Assembly: GCF_000373365.1 (NCBI RefSeq)
Contig: NZ_KB891263.1
Location: 104,299-168,298, forward strand
From: Parafrankia discariae
GTDB taxonomy: Bacteria > Actinomycetota > Actinomycetes > Frankiales > Frankiaceae
Direction of reading: 5' to 3'
Length of the DNA: 64,000 nt
The position numbers and the translations under genes are program-made. Positions 45,825 through 60,535 of this stretch are shown here, piece after piece; the first letter of the stretch is position 1, and every line of letters begins with the position of its first letter. Below the pieces are notes generated by a model. That model was not told the DNA's origin, made no database searches, and saw nothing but the letters and a program-made list of their open reading frames with translations.

Positions 45825-45864
45825 AACGGTGCCCCGGAACGCGGATGCGTTCCGGGGCACCGTT
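45825..45864. terminator. 18-bp perfect hairpin terminator
   Basis: The stem 45825-45842 pairs perfectly with 45847-45864 around the loop GGAT; the stem begins with AA and ends with TT. It lies 65 bp after the small peptide ORF and can end transcription from that side. Confidence 0.85.
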
Positions 45865-45880
45865 CGTATGAGCGCCATCC

Positions 45881-45912
45881 TCAGGTCTGACCCGGCTTCG
45901 GGTCAGACCTGA
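45881..45912 (-). terminator. 14-bp hairpin terminator of the helicase gene
   Basis: The stem 45881-45894 pairs perfectly with 45899-45912 around a GCTT loop, 9 bp after the helicase stop codon on the minus strand. Confidence 0.85.
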
Positions 45913-45921
45913 GTCGATGGG

Positions 45922-50973: not shown

Positions 50974-51297
50974 CTACGGGCGCGGGCCGCCGGCCCGGCG
51001 GCCCGCGCCCGCCCGGCGATGGATGACGACGAGGTCGACCAGCGCCGTGGCGGCGATGATCCCGAGGACGACGGCCGGCGCGGTTCGGCCGGCCACCGCC
51101 AGCAACCCGCTGAAGACTCCGCAGAAGACCAGGCCGAACAGCGCCAGCGCCCGGCGCAGACCGAGGGCGCTGGCGGCCGGCGCGGCACCCGTCCGCGCGT
51201 CGCCGAGCGAGCCCAGCCGGCGCCACCACGGGGTACGCCACCACGGTGGGGGGTGCGCGGGGCGCTCGGTGCGCTGCCGGGGTACGGGACCGGTCAC
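50974..51297 (-). CDS. Small two-helix membrane protein (DUF6343-like)
   Basis: This is a 107-aa protein with a Trp/Pro/Arg-rich cytosolic start and two membrane segments (RRALALFGLVFCGVFSGLLAV, then APAVVLGIIAATALVDLVVI), ending in a basic tail. The pattern SALGLRRALALFGL recalls the small actinobacterial DUF6343 family (from memory). It lies 64 bp upstream of the DUF445 gene on the same strand and may be in that operon. The start codon is tentative. Function unknown. Confidence 0.6.
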   Translation of the reverse strand: MTGPVPRQRTERPAHPPPWWRTPWWRRLGSLGDARTGAAPAASALGLRRALALFGLVFCGVFSGLLAVAGRTAPAVVLGIIAATALVDLVVIHRRAGAGRRAGGPRP

Positions 51298-53449: not shown

Positions 53450-53812
53450 ACTACCGTATGCATTCCTGTATATCAAAGGACGTCCGGCAAACACTGACGC
53501 CAAGGCGGGGAGTGCTTACAGCCTGTGATTCGATGATTCCTGCCGGGAATACCCTTCCGTGAGCCAGTTGACAAAAGCCGCCCACTCTCGCCGTCCTGGT
53601 CGGTGTGCTGATGGGACGTGCTGAGGGGACTTGTAGGTCGGCTCGCTACAGTTGTCCGACGTCGGACGCTTTCAGGCGGGCGCGGGCCGGATGTCATCGA
53701 TCGCGGCCCGCCCTTGTCGCGCGCCGTCCGTCGCGGACCAGGCATCGAAAGAGCGACTCGCTCACCCCGCACACGAGGCGCCCAACCCCGGGGCGTCGGA
53801 CGAGAGGACTGG

Positions 53813-56800
53813 ATGCTCCGGAATTGGCCCATCCGCTCGAAGCTAGTGGTGATTCTGATCGTCCCGCTGGCCGCGCTGGCCGTGCTGAGCGCGATACAGG
53901 TGCGCGGGGACGTCGACAACGTCCGGGCCGCGGACCGCATCGAGGCGCTCGCCGACTTCTCGATCAAAGGTAACAACCTGGTCCACGTGCTTCAGCGGGA
54001 GCGCTATGCGACCAACTCTTACGTTGGATCGAACTTCCTCATCCCGGTGCTGGGCCAGCAGGCTGTGGATGCCCGCAAGCCCGTGGACGACGCCCTCGCC
54101 ATCTACCTGGCCGACGAGCAGGCACTGCCCGCGTCCGCGCGGGACGCCCTCGGCTCGACGCTGAGTTCCATCCGTACGCATCTCGACCAGCTCGGCGAGC
54201 ACCGCAAGCAGATCGACGCGCACCAGACCGAGATCGCGTCGAACGGGGCCTTCTACAACGAGGCCGTGAACGAGCTGCTGCTGCTCAACGCGCGGATCGC
54301 GGCCGGTAGCTCGGACGCCAAGCTGGTCAACGGCTCTACCACGCTGGCCGGTATCGCCCAGGCCAAGGAACAGGCCTCCCAGCAGCGCGGCGCCGTCGCC
54401 CAGATGCTCTCCATGCACAACGCCACGCCGCAGATGCTGCGTGCTCTGCTGGCCTACGCCGGTGCCGAGACCGCCTGGACCGAGCAGTTCCGCTCCACGG
54501 CGACGCCGGCCGAGCTGGAGCTGTTCACGAACACGGTCGGGCGCTCCGCCACCGGCGTCAACCAGATGCGCGAAGACGTGGTCAACACGTTCAGCGGGCA
54601 GCCGGCTTCCGAGGTCACCCTCGACGCCTGGCGGACCGCCGCCGACGGCAAGATCACGCAGATGCACGACGTCGAGGTGCAGATCGCCACCGACCTGGCG
54701 GCGACAAGCCGCGACATCGCCTCGACGGCCTCCCGGGACGCCCTGATCGGAAGCATCGGCGTCGCGATCATTCTCGTCCTGTCGGTCGTGATCTCGCTGC
54801 TCGTCGCCAGCCCCATGATCGGCCAGCTCCGCCGGCTGCGTGGCGGCGCGCTCGACGTCGCCAACGACCGGCTGCCCAGCGTCGTCGAGCGGCTGCACCG
54901 AGGTGAGCCCGTCGACATCGACGCGGAGTCCTTCCCGGTACCCGCGACCAGCAAGGACGAGATCGGCCAACTGGCGGAGGCGTTCGCCACGGTGCACGAG
55001 GTGGCGGTGCGCACCGCCGTCGAGCAGGCCGCGATGCGCAAGAGCATCGGGGACACCTTCCTCAACCTCGCCCGCCGCAGCCAGGCCCTGATCCACCGCC
55101 AGCTGAAGATCATCGACGCGCTGGAGCGCAAGGAGACCGACCCGGACGAGCTCGAGGAGCTGTTCCGCCTCGACCACCTCGCGACCCGTATGCGCCGCCA
55201 CGCCGAGGACCTCATCGTCCTCTCCGGCTCCAAGCCGGCCCGTGGCTGGCGCCGGCCGGTTCCGATCAAGGACGTCGTCCGCGGTGCCGTCGCCGAGGTC
55301 GAGGACTACACCCGGGTCAAGGTCCTGCCCATCACCGGTGGCGCCGTCTCCGGCCACGCCGTCGGTGACGTGATCCACATGTTCGCCGAGCTGATCGAGA
55401 ACGCGACCTCCTTCTCGCCCCCGCACACCCCGGTGCAGGTCTCCGGGCACCCGGTCTCCAACGGCTTCGTGGTCGAGATCGAGGACCGCGGGCTCGGGAT
55501 GAACCAGGAGGAGATCGACGCGCTCAACAACCGGCTGGCCAACCCGCCGCCGTTCGACCTGTCGACCAGCGAGCGGCTGGGCCTGTTCGTGGTCAGCCGG
55601 CTCGCCGAGCGGCACGAGGTCCAGGTGCGGCTGCGGCCCTCGCCGTACGGCGGCACGATGGCGATCGTCCTGCTGCCCGCGACCCTGCTGCGCGCCTCCG
55701 ACGACAAGGGCGAGGACAGCGGCCCGCGCGAGTTCGCCGCGGTCGGCGCGTCGAGCGCCGGTACGGAGGGCTCGGACCTGGCCGGCTCGCTCAACGGCAC
55801 CGGCGACCGGGTGAACGGGGCCGGCGGCGCCGGCTCGGAGAGCAACGGCCACTGGGCGGGGGACATCCCCGGGGGCACCCTGGACGCGGCGGCGCTGTCG
55901 ACGGCCGGAGCCAACGGTGCCGGCCCCAACACCGACGAGACGCTGATCGACGACCTCCCGGTCTTCGCCACGGCGCGGTCGAGCTGGTTCGTCGCGGAGA
56001 AGCCCGGTGGCAGGAACCGGACAGAGGACGAGGGGGGCGACGACGGTCCGGTACCGCCGCGCCGTCCGGGCGAGCTGACCGGCCCGACGCGGCGGGCCGA
56101 GCTCCCGCCGTCCCGGGACGGCGCCGGTTACCCGGACGACGCGGGGGCCGGGATGAACACGGGCTGGTCCGACGGCCGGTCCGACCCGGCGGCCTCGCTG
56201 TTCGGTCCGCCGCCGGGAGGCGGCGAGTTCGGTGGCGGCTCGCTGTTCAGCGCTCCGCCCGACACCGGTCAGTTCAGCGGCTTCGGCCCGAACGGGTTCG
56301 GTGACGGCGCCGGCGGCGGCTACGGCGACGCGGGCTTCGGCGACGGCGGCAACGGGTCGAGCGGCAACGGAACGGGCGGCTTCGCCGACTCGGACTACCA
56401 CACCGCCGAGTTCAGTCGGTCCGGTTTCGGCTCCGGCGGCGGTTTCGGGAACGACGGTGGCTTCGGGAACGACGGTGGCTTCGGGAACGACGGTGGCTTC
56501 GGGAACGACGGTGGCTTCGGGAGCAACGGTGGCTTCGGGAGCAACGGTGGCTTCGGGAGCAACGGCGGTTTCGGCGGCGACGGCGGCTCGGGGCAGGAGA
56601 CCGGCGACGGCTTCGGTCCGGCCGGCGGTTTCGGCTCGGGTGACGGTTTCGGTTCGGCCGACTCCCAGCCCGGGGCCGGGCTGCCGTCCCGTTCCAGAAA
56701 CGGTCGAGGCTCGGGTGACTACGCCCGCGCCGACTACACGCCACCCGGCCAGCAGGGCCCGGCCGGGGACGGGACCGGCTACCGCGAGCCCTACGCGGAC

Positions 56801-57250
56801 CGCGGCCAGCAGTTCGGCCGTCCTGCCCGGGAAAACGGGTACGGCGGGGCGGAACAGGCCCAGGGTGGCGACGGCGGCCTCGGTGACGGCGCCTTCCGCC
56901 GCTCGCCCCGGTCGTCACGCCCGGGGCAGCCGACCGGTGGGGGCTCCGCCTACCCCGGGGCCAACCCGCCGCCGGCGGCGCCCCCGCTCGACCCGGGAGC
57001 CGCCGCGCCGGAGGAGCCCGGCGACGACGGTCTCGACGAGCTCGGCCTGCCCAAGCGGCGGCGCCGCGCGAACCTGGCGCCGCAGCTGCGCCGGGAGAAC
57101 GCCGACGCGGGCCGTTCGGCGCTCGCCGCGGGCCCTCGTTCACCCGAGGAGATCCGCAGCATGATGTCGTCCTTCCAGGCCAACTTCGGCCGTGGGATCG
57201 AGGACGGAACGGTGTCCAATGACGGAGATGATGTGAGGAAGGTAACCTGA
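53813..57250 (+). CDS. Conservon sensor histidine kinase (CvnA type) with NIT domain
   Basis: This 1145-aa membrane kinase has a first membrane segment at about 9-27 and an outer nitrate/nitrite-sensor-type (NIT) helical domain to about 305. The second membrane segment is at 314-336, followed by a HAMP linker. An atypical H-box (FRLDHLATRMRRHAEDL) precedes the HATPase domain with FAELIENATSFSPP (N box, about 522) and EDRGLGM (about 557). The last 450 residues are low complexity, including eight 6-residue GFGNDG/GFGSNG repeats (877-924). In Streptomyces such kinases recruit the roadblock and GTPase proteins at the membrane. ATG with GAGAGGA. Its stop overlaps the roadblock start by 1 nt. Confidence 0.92.
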   Translation: MLRNWPIRSKLVVILIVPLAALAVLSAIQVRGDVDNVRAADRIEALADFSIKGNNLVHVLQRERYATNSYVGSNFLIPVLGQQAVDARKPVDDALAIYLADEQALPASARDALGSTLSSIRTHLDQLGEHRKQIDAHQTEIASNGAFYNEAVNELLLLNARIAAGSSDAKLVNGSTTLAGIAQAKEQASQQRGAVAQMLSMHNATPQMLRALLAYAGAETAWTEQFRSTATPAELELFTNTVGRSATGVNQMREDVVNTFSGQPASEVTLDAWRTAADGKITQMHDVEVQIATDLAATSRDIASTASRDALIGSIGVAIILVLSVVISLLVASPMIGQLRRLRGGALDVANDRLPSVVERLHRGEPVDIDAESFPVPATSKDEIGQLAEAFATVHEVAVRTAVEQAAMRKSIGDTFLNLARRSQALIHRQLKIIDALERKETDPDELEELFRLDHLATRMRRHAEDLIVLSGSKPARGWRRPVPIKDVVRGAVAEVEDYTRVKVLPITGGAVSGHAVGDVIHMFAELIENATSFSPPHTPVQVSGHPVSNGFVVEIEDRGLGMNQEEIDALNNRLANPPPFDLSTSERLGLFVVSRLAERHEVQVRLRPSPYGGTMAIVLLPATLLRASDDKGEDSGPREFAAVGASSAGTEGSDLAGSLNGTGDRVNGAGGAGSESNGHWAGDIPGGTLDAAALSTAGANGAGPNTDETLIDDLPVFATARSSWFVAEKPGGRNRTEDEGGDDGPVPPRRPGELTGPTRRAELPPSRDGAGYPDDAGAGMNTGWSDGRSDPAASLFGPPPGGGEFGGGSLFSAPPDTGQFSGFGPNGFGDGAGGGYGDAGFGDGGNGSSGNGTGGFADSDYHTAEFSRSGFGSGGGFGNDGGFGNDGGFGNDGGFGNDGGFGSNGGFGSNGGFGSNGGFGGDGGSGQETGDGFGPAGGFGSGDGFGSADSQPGAGLPSRSRNGRGSGDYARADYTPPGQQGPAGDGTGYREPYADRGQQFGRPARENGYGGAEQAQGGDGGLGDGAFRRSPRSSRPGQPTGGGSAYPGANPPPAAPPLDPGAAAPEEPGDDGLDELGLPKRRRRANLAPQLRRENADAGRSALAAGPRSPEEIRSMMSSFQANFGRGIEDGTVSNDGDDVRKVT
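56441..56584 (+). repeat. Eight 18-bp repeats within the conservon kinase gene
   Basis: Eight in-frame 18-bp units (consensus GGCTTCGGGAACGACGGT, later GGCTTCGGGAGCAACGGT) encode GFGNDG/GFGSNG hexapeptides. Copy number probably varies between strains. Confidence 0.95.
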
Positions 57251-57669
57251 TGCGTCCGCTGGGGCCGTCGGAGAACATGAACTGGTTGCTCAACAACCTG
57301 GTCAAGAAGGTCCCCGAGGTCACCTATGTGATCGTGCTTTCTTCGGACGGTCTGCTGCTCGCGACCTCGCGTGGAATGGACCGGGCCACCGCTGACCAGC
57401 TCGCCGCGGTGGCCTCCGGATTCAACAGCCTCGCCCGGGGCGCCGGCCGGTTCTTCGGCGGCGGTAACGTCCGGCAGACCATCGTCGAGATGGAGGCGGG
57501 ATTCCTGTTCGTCACCGCGGTCGGTGACGGCTCGTGTCTGGCTATTCTCAGCAGCCCGGGCGCGGACATCGGCCTCATCGCCTACGAGATGGCGCTGCTG
57601 GTGACGAGGGTGGGTGAGTTTCTGACGCCGGAGCTTCGCGCCGAGATGCAGTCGGCGCTGCCGATTTAG
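57250..57669 (+). CDS. Roadblock/LC7 protein (CvnB type)
   Basis: This 139-aa roadblock/LC7 fold protein reads NWLLNNLVKKVPEVTYVIVLSSDGLLLATSRGMDRATADQLAAVASGF, then IVEMEAGFLFVTAVGDGSCLAIL and IGLIAYEMALLVTRV. In conservons it is a GTPase regulator or adaptor between kinase and CvnD. The ATG at 57250 overlaps the kinase stop; a second Met 10 codons in is possible. A 26-bp perfect hairpin follows it and precedes the DUF742 gene, so the downstream genes may be expressed at a different level. Confidence 0.93.
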   Translation: MRPLGPSENMNWLLNNLVKKVPEVTYVIVLSSDGLLLATSRGMDRATADQLAAVASGFNSLARGAGRFFGGGNVRQTIVEMEAGFLFVTAVGDGSCLAILSSPGADIGLIAYEMALLVTRVGEFLTPELRAEMQSALPI

Positions 57670-57687
57670 GACCTGTCCGAATGCACG

Positions 57688-57756
57688 CGCGGTGGCGCGT
57701 CACCGGTTTCCGGCCCGTCCCCCGACGGGCCGGAAACCGGTGACGCGCCCACCGCG
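57688..57756 (+). terminator. Long intra-operon hairpin between cvnB- and cvnC-like genes
   Basis: A perfect 26-bp stem (57694-57719 with 57724-57749), loop CCCC, is extended by 6 more pairs with a one-base bulge (57688-57693 with 57751-57756). It lies 18 bp after the roadblock stop and 33 bp before the DUF742 start. It could be an attenuator, a processing site or a stabiliser of the upstream transcript. Confidence 0.9.
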
Positions 57757-57788
57757 GGCAAATGACGATCCCAGGCAGGAGGACCGCG

Positions 57789-58160
57789 GTGTCAGGGGAT
57801 GAGGAATGGTTCGACGACGAGGCCGGGCCGGTGGTGCGGCCGTATGCCGTCACGGGGGGACGCACCCGTCCCAGTAACCGGACCCTGGATCTGGTGGCCC
57901 TGGTGTCCACCTCTCCGCAGGGACGGGCCATCGCGACCACGCTGGAACCGGAGCAGCGTGCCATAGCGCTGCTCTGCCAGCGACTCCAGTCCGTCGTTGA
58001 GATCTCCGCCCGACTCAACCTCCCAGTCGGCGTGGCACGTGTGCTCGTCGGCGACATGCTCGACGCCGGGCTGGTGAGTGTGCACCGGCCCGAACGAACG
58101 TCGGACCGCCCCAGCGTGGCGATTATCGAAAAGGTGCTCAGTGGACTCCAGGCTCTCTAG
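57789..58160 (+). CDS. DUF742 protein (CvnC type)
   Basis: This 123-aa DUF742 protein reads VRPYAVTGGRTRPSNRTLDLVALVST, then EQRAIALLCQRLQSVVEISARLNLPVGVARVLVGDMLDAGLVSVHRP, a winged-helix-like form. It is the third element of the conservon, of unknown mechanism. The GTG at 57789 has GGAGG 7 nt upstream; an ATG at 57762 in the same frame is an alternative. It overlaps the GTPase gene by 20 bp. Confidence 0.92.
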   Translation: MSGDEEWFDDEAGPVVRPYAVTGGRTRPSNRTLDLVALVSTSPQGRAIATTLEPEQRAIALLCQRLQSVVEISARLNLPVGVARVLVGDMLDAGLVSVHRPERTSDRPSVAIIEKVLSGLQAL

Positions 58161-58764
58161 GACCCGAGCGGCCGATACACCGGCGCCGCATCCGGTCAAG
58201 ATCATCGTTGCCGGTGGTTTCGGAGTCGGGAAGACGACGTTCGTCGGCGCCGTGAGCGAGATTCCCCCGCTCACCACGGAGGCCGCGATGACGGCCGCGA
58301 GTATCGGTGTCGACGACACCAGCGCCGTCGCGTCCAAGACGACGACGACGGTGGCCATGGACTTCGGTCGGATCACCCTGGTCGACAGCGTGATTCTCTA
58401 CCTGTTCGGGACCCCCGGCCAGGACCGTTTCTGGTTCATGTGGGACGAGCTCGTCCTCGGTGCGATCGGCGCGGTCGTGCTCGTCGACACCCGCCGTCTC
58501 GCCGACTCGTTTCCCGCCATCGACTACTTCGAGGAACGTGACATCCCGTTCCTCATCGCCCTGAACCACTTCGAGGGCGCGCGCCATTACCGCAGCGAGG
58601 ACATCCGCGCGGCGCTGGACCTCGACCCCCGCCGGCCGATGGTGCTGTGCGACGCCCGCCAGCGGGAGTCGGTGCGCCAGTCGCTCATCGCGCTGGTCCG
58701 CCACGCCCTGGAGGTGGTCTCGGCGGAGAGCCAGCGACCGGGGCTGCCGACCGGCTCCCGGTGA
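58141..58764 (+). CDS. Conservon small GTPase (CvnD type)
   Basis: This 207-aa MglA/Ras-like ATP/GTP-binding protein has G1 GGFGVGKTT at residues 25-33, followed by TTTTVAMDFGRI (switch region). G3 reads LYLFGTPGQDRFWF, and G4 is ALNHFEGA in place of NKxD. The C-terminal LIALVRHALEVV helix is usual. The conservon complex is proposed to link the sensor kinase to an intracellular switch at the membrane. The start is GTG 58141 (VDSRLSRTRA); its stop overlaps the GTG of the LuxR-type regulator (GTGA), so the two are coupled. Confidence 0.93.
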   Translation: MDSRLSRTRAADTPAPHPVKIIVAGGFGVGKTTFVGAVSEIPPLTTEAAMTAASIGVDDTSAVASKTTTTVAMDFGRITLVDSVILYLFGTPGQDRFWFMWDELVLGAIGAVVLVDTRRLADSFPAIDYFEERDIPFLIALNHFEGARHYRSEDIRAALDLDPRRPMVLCDARQRESVRQSLIALVRHALEVVSAESQRPGLPTGSR

Positions 58765-59825
58765 ACGACACCGCGCGTGCCACCCCAGCGCCCGCGGGCC
58801 ATCCGATTCTACCTGGGAAGGGGATCTTGCTCGAGCTCCTCGGTCTCGACGACGTGACGCTGTCGGCCTACCGGTTGTGGCTGAGACATCCCGACATGGA
58901 TGTCAACGGGGTGGCCATCGCCGTGGGGCAGGCCAACGACACGATCCGCAGGTCCCGGGACCGGCTCGTCGAGCTGTCACTGCTGTTGCCCTCGACCGAG
59001 CACCCCGGTCACCTGGTCGCCGTCCACCCGGAGGCCGGACTGGAGCATCTGCTCCAGGCTCAGCACGAGGCGCTCATCCGCCGCCACGAGCGGCTCGTCC
59101 GGGCCCGGGCGCAGGTGAGCACGTTCGTCTCGGAGTACCTGGACAACCGGCCCGGTGGGGACGGCGCGGAGGTCGAGCACATCGACAGCGCCGACCAGGC
59201 CCGGGCCGAGCTGCTCACCCTGGTCGGCCGGGCCGAGAAGGAGGTGCTCGCGCTGCACACCCGGCGCGGCCGCCCACCGGCCCTGACCGCGGAGGTCCTC
59301 CCGGTCGAGCTGCGGGCGCTGCAACGCGGTGTGGCGATGCGCAGCGTCCTCCCACGCACGGTGAGTACCGACGAGACGGGGGTCGGGTATGTCCGCACCG
59401 TCGCCTCACACGGCCTGGAAGCCCGGCTCGCCGACGATCCGCGCATCGACGCGACGACGGTGGACGGCCGGGTCGGGCTGGTGCAGTTCGTGCAGCACGG
59501 CACCGACCCGCACGCTCTGATCGTGCGCTCGCCGGCGCTGGCGAACCTGGTCACGATGCTGTTCGAGCAGGTCTGGGACAGCGCCGAGCCGCTGGCCGTG
59601 GAGGCCGACGGTGACCTGGAGAGCCCCGCGGACGATCGACCGAACGACACCGAGCGGCTGCTGTTAAGGCTGCTCAGCCTGGGTGTGAAGGACGAGGCGG
59701 CGGCTCGTCACCTCGGGGTGTCCGTCCGCACGGTGCGGCGGATGGTCGCCGACCTCATGACCCGACTCGACGCCCGCAGCCGTTTTCAGGCCGGGACGGT
59801 CGCGGCCCGGCGCGGCTGGTTGTAG
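58761..59825 (+). CDS. LuxR-type helix-turn-helix regulator
   Basis: This 354-aa regulator has an N-terminal TrmB-like winged helix (ILLELLGLDDVTLSAYRLWLRHP, then NDTIRRSRDRLVELSLL), a helical stretch and a PLD-like middle domain (ADQARAELLTLVGRAEKEVLALHTR). The C-terminal LuxR HTH reads DTERLLLRLLSLGVKDEAAARHLGVSVRTVRRMVADLMTRLDARSRFQAG. Such proteins often control antibiotic or pigment clusters in actinomycetes. Its GTG overlaps the GTPase stop (GTGA), so it is translated with the conservon, while it lies just upstream of the polyketide genes. It is a likely link from the conservon to the cluster; that is inference. Confidence 0.85.
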   Translation: MNDTARATPAPAGHPILPGKGILLELLGLDDVTLSAYRLWLRHPDMDVNGVAIAVGQANDTIRRSRDRLVELSLLLPSTEHPGHLVAVHPEAGLEHLLQAQHEALIRRHERLVRARAQVSTFVSEYLDNRPGGDGAEVEHIDSADQARAELLTLVGRAEKEVLALHTRRGRPPALTAEVLPVELRALQRGVAMRSVLPRTVSTDETGVGYVRTVASHGLEARLADDPRIDATTVDGRVGLVQFVQHGTDPHALIVRSPALANLVTMLFEQVWDSAEPLAVEADGDLESPADDRPNDTERLLLRLLSLGVKDEAAARHLGVSVRTVRRMVADLMTRLDARSRFQAGTVAARRGWL

Positions 59826-60157
59826 CCACGTTGTGATCAGTTGGTCGTTTTGTTGGCAGTAGATGGTCAGGGCAACTTCCTGCCACCCGGAATGCCGGAC
59901 AGAAGTTCCGATGGGCCGCATGATTCCGATGAGCAACCGGAATTACGTATAGCTGGCGCGGACCACCACAGCAGGAACCGGCCAGGTGGCTTCGCCGACC
60001 GGCGAACGCGTGAGACCGGTCACTTGCGCGTGTCGGTGCTGAGCGCCTCCGATCCGGCCGGGGCCTTCGGGCCAGTCCGACCAGTCGATGGCGGTCAGCC
60101 GTGTCCGAACACGCGCGGCGCAGCCTGTTCATCGTGAACTCCGAAAGAGGAGATCGA
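59826..60157. other. Promoter region before the type II polyketide genes
   Basis: This 332-bp region is more AT-rich at 59830-59960. It contains TTCCGATG twice (59906-59913 and 59924-59931, 18 bp apart) and CCGGAAT twice (near 59888 and 59937), a possible binding array for the linked regulator. No gene is visible. Confidence 0.5.
59906..59931. promoter_or_regulatory. Direct repeat TTCCGATG, possible regulator site
   Basis: Two perfect 8-bp direct repeats start 18 bp apart upstream of the polyketide operon. They are flanked by two CCGGAAT copies. They could be the site of the LuxR-type or another activator. Confidence 0.4.
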
Positions 60158-60535
60158 GTGCCGACGGAATCCGGCTCGGTTCCGAACCAACGCACGACCA
60201 GCCAGCGGACGCTGATTGTCGCCCGCATGAACCCCGAGGACGCCGGCGCGGTCGCCGACGTCTTCGCGGAGTCGGACGCCGGCGAGCTCCCACATCTCGT
60301 CGGCGTCGCCCGGCGCGACCTTTTCCGTTTCCACGGGCTGTACTTCCACCTCATCGAGAGCCGGGCGGACATCAACGGCACGCTGCCGCCGGTTCGGGAG
60401 CACCCGCTGTTCGTCGATGTGAACAGCAAGCTCGAGAAGTACATCGCGGCGTACGACCCGCAGACCTGGCGCGGCCCGCGGGACGCGATGGCCGACAGCT
60501 TCTACACCTGGGTGGCCGATCAGAGCGGTCCCTGA
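60158..60535 (+). CDS. TcmI-family type II polyketide cyclase
   Basis: This 125-aa ferredoxin-like-fold cyclase (TcmI/WhiE-ORFVII type) reads TLIVARMNPEDAGAVADVFAESDAGELPHLVGVARRDLFRFHGLYFHLIES, then HPLFVDVNSKLEKYIAAYDPQTWRGPRDAMADSFYTW. It closes later rings of an aromatic polyketide. The GTG at 60158 follows GAGGAG at 6 nt; a longer frame from 60101 has no family resemblance. It is the first gene of the polyketide block; a 334-bp gap follows, so the ACP gene may have its own promoter. Confidence 0.92.
   Translation: MPTESGSVPNQRTTSQRTLIVARMNPEDAGAVADVFAESDAGELPHLVGVARRDLFRFHGLYFHLIESRADINGTLPPVREHPLFVDVNSKLEKYIAAYDPQTWRGPRDAMADSFYTWVADQSGP

Follow-up and report, generated by a model that had tools for sequence, protein, structure and literature searches.

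The closest described counterparts of the element reported here are transcript ends of high-GC actinobacteria at which a stable RNA hairpin lacks a U-tract. Term-seq data from Streptomyces clavuligerus are reported to show fewer than three U residues after the stem for 353 of the 535 transcript ends that are highly structured (PMC8269248). Read-through at these U-poor ends is described as lower than at random positions but reduced less than at U-rich ends, and the authors liken these ends to I-shaped terminators and also to the 3' termini left on Rho-dependent transcripts (PMC8269248). A further Streptomyces Term-seq survey reports low U content together with hairpins that are the most stable and the longest (PMC12207403). 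The mycobacterial evidence is conflicting: the RNA polymerase reportedly needs a U-tract to terminate in vitro (PMC5335608, citing Czyz 2014), while in M. smegmatis reporter expression was reduced by a hairpin lacking U residues (PMC5335608). Hairpins between cistrons are also known from Escherichia coli malE–malF, where REP elements act as intercistronic stabilising hairpins.

Here we describe a hairpin that bears on whether U-less hairpins really terminate transcription in high-GC actinobacteria, located in a 64,000-nucleotide stretch of DNA from a Parafrankia-type member of the Frankiaceae (the window; the genome comprises 7.9 Mb in 194 contigs). It lies between the second and third genes of a regulatory operon, fkmR2 and fkmR3, and all of the features given below are on the forward strand. 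Two arms of 26 nt each, 57694–57719 and 57724–57749, are 100% complementary and enclose a 4 nt spacer, the CCCC loop (57720–57723). The fold continues beyond a single bulged C at 57750 with six extra pairs, formed between CGCGGT (57688–57693) and ACCGCG (57751–57756). No T-run is present 3' of the stem, where the letters read CACCGCGGGC, and the 8 nt stem tail CACCGCGG contains no T, within the limit of fewer than three U used in PMC8269248. An earlier note on this DNA had given the same anatomy and coordinates and had pointed out the lack of a T-run; the inverted-repeat listing and the fold agree with the former and the sequence with the latter.

The same note regarded the hairpin as the strongest in the window, and this is borne out. 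It ranks first among the 58 inverted-repeat pairs of the window with arms at most 60 nt apart and is the longest perfect repeat among the best 25 of these 58; three others of these best 25 reach 27–29 nt, yet they are only 74–76% complementary. The minimum free energy of the segment 57660–57790 is −88.6 kcal/mol, compared with a mean of −56.5 for 200 dinucleotide shuffles (z = −7.96), none of which is as low. In a 544 kb genome sample consisting of the window and 24 stretches, each of 20 kb, no other perfect hairpin (loop of 3–10 nt) equals its 26 bp; the next stems have 25, 22 and 22 bp. Three Markov-3 simulations matching this sample contain no stem of at least 14 bp.

Three sequence features of the I-shaped class are present: a GC-rich and stable stem with a short loop, fewer than three U in 8 nt and a position soon after a coding sequence. 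With the I-shaped terminators and HS-U-lack ends of high-GC actinobacteria the hairpin shares a long GC-rich stem, a short loop, the absence of a U-tract, proximity to a stop codon and membership in a class that is enriched at gene 3' ends. Unlike them, it sits inside an operon with a start codon 39 nt after the 26 bp stem, and it has the longest perfect stem in the 544 kb sample. It does not resemble a canonical U-tract terminator, as no T-run follows the stem and a scan of 57400–57900 lists a single terminator-like site, at 57482–57499, and none at the hairpin. The alr–groEL1 unit of M. tuberculosis provides a comparable arrangement, in which a U-less hairpin in a multi-gene unit is proposed to lower downstream expression, but the genes are different and that hairpin was tested with a reporter (PMC5335608). 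The REP elements of malE–malF are likewise intercistronic, and like them the present hairpin could protect the upstream message; in contrast to REP, it is a single-copy element and not a dispersed one. The 6C RNA family also has a C-rich loop on a GC stem and is characterized by two hairpins. The element here is a single hairpin; its match to 6C RNA (Rfam RF01066) scores 28.6 bits, whereas the gathering score is 47. In total, Rfam gives nine matches with E up to 1 over 57200–58300, mostly to microRNA models and none at the gathering score. The fkmR2–R3 hairpin is not mentioned in the titles and abstract openings listed from the conservon, frankiamicin and Frankia transcription literature.

The operon is identified by gene order and Pfam matches as fkmR1–R5, the conservon of a frankiamicin-type polyketide cluster. 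For Frankia sp. EAN1pec, the frankiamicin cluster is reported to contain fkmR1–R5 and fkmC3 in the order seen in the window, and the authors liken fkmR1–R4 to a conservon (PMC4383371). The first gene (fkmR1-type, CvnA; 53618–57250) encodes a NIT sensor and a HATPase_c domain (Pfam NIT, 8e-44; HATPase_c, 2e-11) and has the position expected from Table 2 of PMC4383371; its coordinates are those of the longest ORF and the true start may be further downstream. The C-terminal part of this kinase-like protein contains a long glycine-rich repeated stretch, GGFGNDGGFGNDGG... The fkmR2-type gene (CvnB; 57250–57669) encodes a Roadblock/LC7 protein (Robl_LC7, 3e-26) and shares 1 nt with the R1 stop. The fkmR3-type gene (CvnC; 57789–58160) encodes a DUF742 protein (DUF742, 5e-35). 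It is followed by the overlapping fkmR4-type gene (CvnD; 58141–58764, with the start chosen by us), which is called a small GTPase from conservon gene order (PMC4383371), its Pfam match being to ATP_bind_1 (6e-33). Kinase-like protein, roadblock protein, DUF742 protein and GTPase therefore follow each other in the cvnA–D order. The LuxR-family regulator (fkmR5-type) is assigned to the ORF 58647–59825 by gene order and by matches to GerE (3e-4) and HTH_23 (8e-5), both below the curated cut-offs; its true start probably lies around 58761, where it would overlap the R4 stop. The first of the biosynthetic genes is a TcmI-like polyketide cyclase (fkmC3-type; 60101–60535; Cyclase_polyket, 5e-42).

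The DUF742 gene probably starts at GTG 57789 and not at ATG 57762, because the Shine–Dalgarno sequence AGGAGG (57777–57782) is located 6 nt before this GTG and the start region is kept, with small changes, in five of five genus relatives. As a consequence, the R2–R3 gap measures 119 nt. The hairpin begins 24 nt past the roadblock stop, and the 39 nt that separate the 26 bp stem from the DUF742 start codon leave little room for a promoter; a scan of 57400–57900 for sigma-70-type promoters returned zero sites. R1 and R2 overlap, as do R3 and R4 and probably R4 and R5, leaving R2–R3 as the only separated junction. The earlier note had called this gap unusual for compact conservons, in agreement with the distances of −4, 25, 34, 85 and 21 nt between the upstream ORF and DUF742 at the five further DUF742 loci that the genome contains, where the C-terminus of the upstream ORF served to identify it as roadblock (with a roadblock match confirmed at two of the five). 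The best stems at these five loci have at most 6 bp. None carries a comparable hairpin, and the idea of a general conservon feature is rejected.

Genes R2, R3, R4 and R5 and the cyclase are present at all 22 named Frankiaceae loci and R1 at 21 of them, the exception being L034, where the contig starts 1.5 kb upstream of R2. Judged by the roadblock protein, the nearest named loci are those of Parafrankia soli (100%), Frankia sp. EI5c (99%), Parafrankia sp. EUN1f (99%) and P. colletiae (98%). Outside the genus the best-segment identity of R1 is 49–73% and that of its roadblock partner R2 83–96%, as counted by eye for the named loci L034–L046 and L048–L052 (an R1 match at 16 of 17, none at L034).

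We compared 30 distinct R2–R3 gaps from Frankiaceae, with identical gaps merged and genus labels deduced from named loci with the same gaps. All six genomes of the genus have a stem in this gap that is stronger than in every one of the 200 mononucleotide shuffles made per gap. Absence of the hairpin in close relatives, which had been named at the outset as the observation that would count against it, is thus not what is seen. In four of five Protofrankia-type gaps there is a hairpin that no more than one of 200 shuffles equals. A strong hairpin is found in none of the 11 Frankia s.s. gaps, none of the seven Pseudofrankia-type gaps and not in the single g4 gap. By this survey the R2–R3 hairpin is lineage-specific, and the gaps that lack it show that the operon works without it. 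An eighth Pseudofrankia-type gap (L130), which is short and shows a weak fold only, was set aside due to a miscalled DUF742 start; G007, G011, G022 and G046 have no close fkmR2 match, and loci outside Frankiaceae, with their crude start calls, are not part of the count.

Across the genus, the outer stem and the post-stop leader GACCUGUCCGAAUGC (57670–57684) remain similar, with 14 of the 15 leader positions invariant in six of six genomes, whereas the letters of the inner stem differ widely while their pairing is kept. Four species have a single hairpin in the gap, and when their arms are combined across species these pair worse than the species' own arms in 12 of 12 hybrids (for example −52.3 versus −77.4). 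The loss is small in one direction of the window/P. soli hybrid (−70.2, compared with −77.4 and −71.4 for the parents), two genomes with roadblock genes that are 98.3% identical. In this pair the gap shows no differences outside the hairpin. Within it, one A–T pair is present or absent on both arms, one loop-adjacent pair differs and there is one G–C/G–U change; in addition, C is replaced by G at 57748 of P. soli on one side only and the stem continues with a shifted bulge. The stems of EUN1f and of genus mate G004 differ by a two-sided G–C/A–U change, and that of EUN1f also has one mismatch.

The hairpin is not alone of its kind. We searched for hairpins with a score of at least 14 in the 544 kb sample of this genome and in 400 kb from G004, using GC3-based gene calls that are crude and miss DUF742 itself. 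Forty-six such hairpins are intergenic, among them the fkmR2–R3 hairpin, and 11 more lie inside called genes. The midpoint is located at most 100 nt from a called gene 3' end only in 34 of the 46 (22% expected, p = 5e-14), while two are near a 5' end only, two near both and eight near no called end. A T-rich tail (at least five T among the 10 nt that follow, with both strands considered) accompanies just one of the 46. When the 43 intergenic hairpins with a called gene on both sides are assigned to gap types, their density is 0.41 per kb in convergent gaps (21 in 50.8 kb), 0.14 per kb in tandem gaps (18 in 126.6 kb) and 0.07 per kb in divergent gaps (four in 56.3 kb), with p = 2e-4 for convergent versus divergent gaps. 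Fourteen of the 18 tandem hairpins begin 4–82 nt past the upstream stop, the fkmR2–R3 hairpin doing so at 24 nt. The sole mismatch in these 18 is A–C and not G–U, a number that gives no power to test for selection on the RNA by a G–U versus A–C bias in imperfect stems. Long T-less hairpins are the usual 3'-end element of the genus, and the fkmR2–R3 hairpin is a strong instance of this element in an uncommon place, inside an operon.

These hairpins are apparently under pressure to stay paired. Six hairpins of the window score at least 12; four of them have an orthologous stretch in the part of G003, the P. soli genome, that was covered, and the hairpin is kept in all four. Two strong T-less hairpins, 45825–45864 and 45880–45913, stand in tandem within a convergent gap. 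Relative to G003 the first has one-sided changes and the second three two-sided changes. A 16 bp perfect hairpin at 50977–51011, labelled coding by the crude gene caller, differs from its G003 counterpart by one two-sided swap from G–C to C–G and by one-sided changes.

Our preferred reading, which we consider reasonably probable, is that a U-less ('I-shaped') 3'-end hairpin within the fkmR1–R5 operon causes an excess of kinase and roadblock over DUF742, GTPase and LuxR. The hairpin is probably functional as an RNA hairpin of the 3'-end type. Provided that fkmR1–R5 are co-transcribed, the RNA would form a very stable rod 24 nt past the roadblock stop. Transcription would partly end there, possibly aided by NusG or Rho, and/or 3'-to-5' exonucleases would stop at the hairpin base. 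Either way, a stable fkmR1–R2 message would remain, fkmR3–R4–R5 would be carried by read-through transcripts only and the kinase–roadblock half would then exceed the DUF742–GTPase–LuxR half. The Streptomyces Term-seq precedent, taken together with the conflicting mycobacterial evidence, leads us to infer that fkmR2 is followed by a leaky end or by a site of 3' protection. The earlier note had suggested a partial terminator or processing element that sets the two halves at unequal levels. For this locus the suggestion gains from the T-less class at gene 3' ends and from the hairpin in all six genus genomes; as a general conservon device it fails at the five other DUF742 loci and in the 11 Frankia s.s. 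and seven Pseudofrankia-type gaps. The junction would be a site in an aromatic polyketide cluster where the sensor and output halves of a conservon could be set unequally. It also offers an extreme, single-copy natural case of a U-less hairpin, of which six genus genomes carry different but always paired versions.

Replication template switching between the arms can make or repair perfect inverted repeats and has been proposed as creating and maintaining RNA hairpins (PMC8794818). The hairpin would then be a mutational by-product that arises without selection on the RNA, and the arms, which change together next to near flanks that are almost fixed, behave as this process would have them do. 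It does not predict the 3'-end bias of the class or its rarity in divergent gaps, however, and we regard it as unlikely to be the explanation. Template switching may supply mutations that selection keeps.

A duplex of 26 + 6 bp has the size that is cut by RNase III-type enzymes. Cleavage of the message, after which the operon halves would decay at different rates, would have the same outcome for the stoichiometry as a 3'-end hairpin. Nevertheless, most hairpins of the class lie at gene 3' ends, and their density is highest in convergent gaps, where processing within a message is not needed, and we give this mRNA processing little credence.

A translational role is improbable. The hairpin could close the 119 nt gap, or could help to hide the DUF742 Shine–Dalgarno sequence via the leader, such that DUF742 translation is coupled to that of the roadblock gene. 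Indeed, the minimum free energy fold of 57660–57790 pairs CCUGUC of the leader with GGCAGG, and the leader is the nearly invariant segment described above. Against this, the mean unpaired probability of AGGAGG in the window is 0.53, which is also the median for 30 shuffled gaps, and becomes 0.65 when the leader is masked; sequestration of the Shine–Dalgarno sequence in the window is thus unsupported. Over the six genus members the accessibility of AGGAGG scatters between 0.24 and 0.61, and in P. colletiae the pairing between leader and Shine–Dalgarno sequence is largely lost.

Insertion of a dispersed palindromic repeat or of a mobile-element remnant has next to no likelihood for the window: although the EUN1f (G001) and G004 gaps do contain a repeat whose family has 44 and 43 matches, respectively, in these genomes (this locus included), the window arm occurs at one site only in 7.9 Mb (once per strand, at most three mismatches allowed), the EUN1f/G004-type query has no match in this genome, the hairpins of EI5c and P. 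colletiae match other places in the six genus genomes only weakly and in part, and the single genomic copy rules out a REP/MITE-type repeat. The segment 57660–57790 also has no match that would link it to phage. The family member in the gaps of EUN1f (L047) and G004 (L115) belongs to a set in which most matches are about 69 nt long, with none in the four other genus genomes searched.

In Frankia s.s. the R2–R3 gap contains a different conserved element of 108–128 nt. It was found in 11 of 13 genomes searched (L034, L037–L040, L044–L046, L119, L124 and L127), with one match each at E up to 0.1; as these 11 genomes supplied the sequences for the model, their matches are expected by construction. 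Two mutually exclusive pairings are predicted, one of them with the DUF742 Shine–Dalgarno region. One may imagine the fkmR2–R3 junction as a dedicated RNA control point that splits a G-protein-like signalling operon and is built differently by genus: as a perfect U-less rod in Parafrankia, as strong hairpins in the majority of Protofrankia-type genomes and, for Frankia s.s., as a conserved element with a strand CCGGUC...CCUGCC that pairs with a local GACCGG or with GGCAGGAGGACCGG around the Shine–Dalgarno sequence of DUF742. We put this forward tentatively, as a doubtful possibility. If true, cells would tune the sensor half against the GTPase–LuxR half that controls polyketide synthesis.

The Frankia s.s. 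strand able to pair with the Shine–Dalgarno region is nearly invariant. A three-helix model that includes this pairing has 98.5% of its cells paired, and its two Shine–Dalgarno helices hardly vary. Helix 1 alone shows two-sided changes, at two pairs, which is reached by 42 of 500 shuffles (33 of 500 for the alternative model). A switch is not claimed and the element is a lead and not a finding, because the pairing hardly varies, 33–42 of 500 shuffles do as well and the predicted Shine–Dalgarno accessibility in Frankia s.s. is inconsistent. Counted by cells, six have two-sided changes, a number reached by none of the 500 shuffles. Among 35 family genomes the only other match of the Frankia s.s. 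model is in the genome of the window (G000; C129, E 0.03, 31 bits) and is taken as chance.
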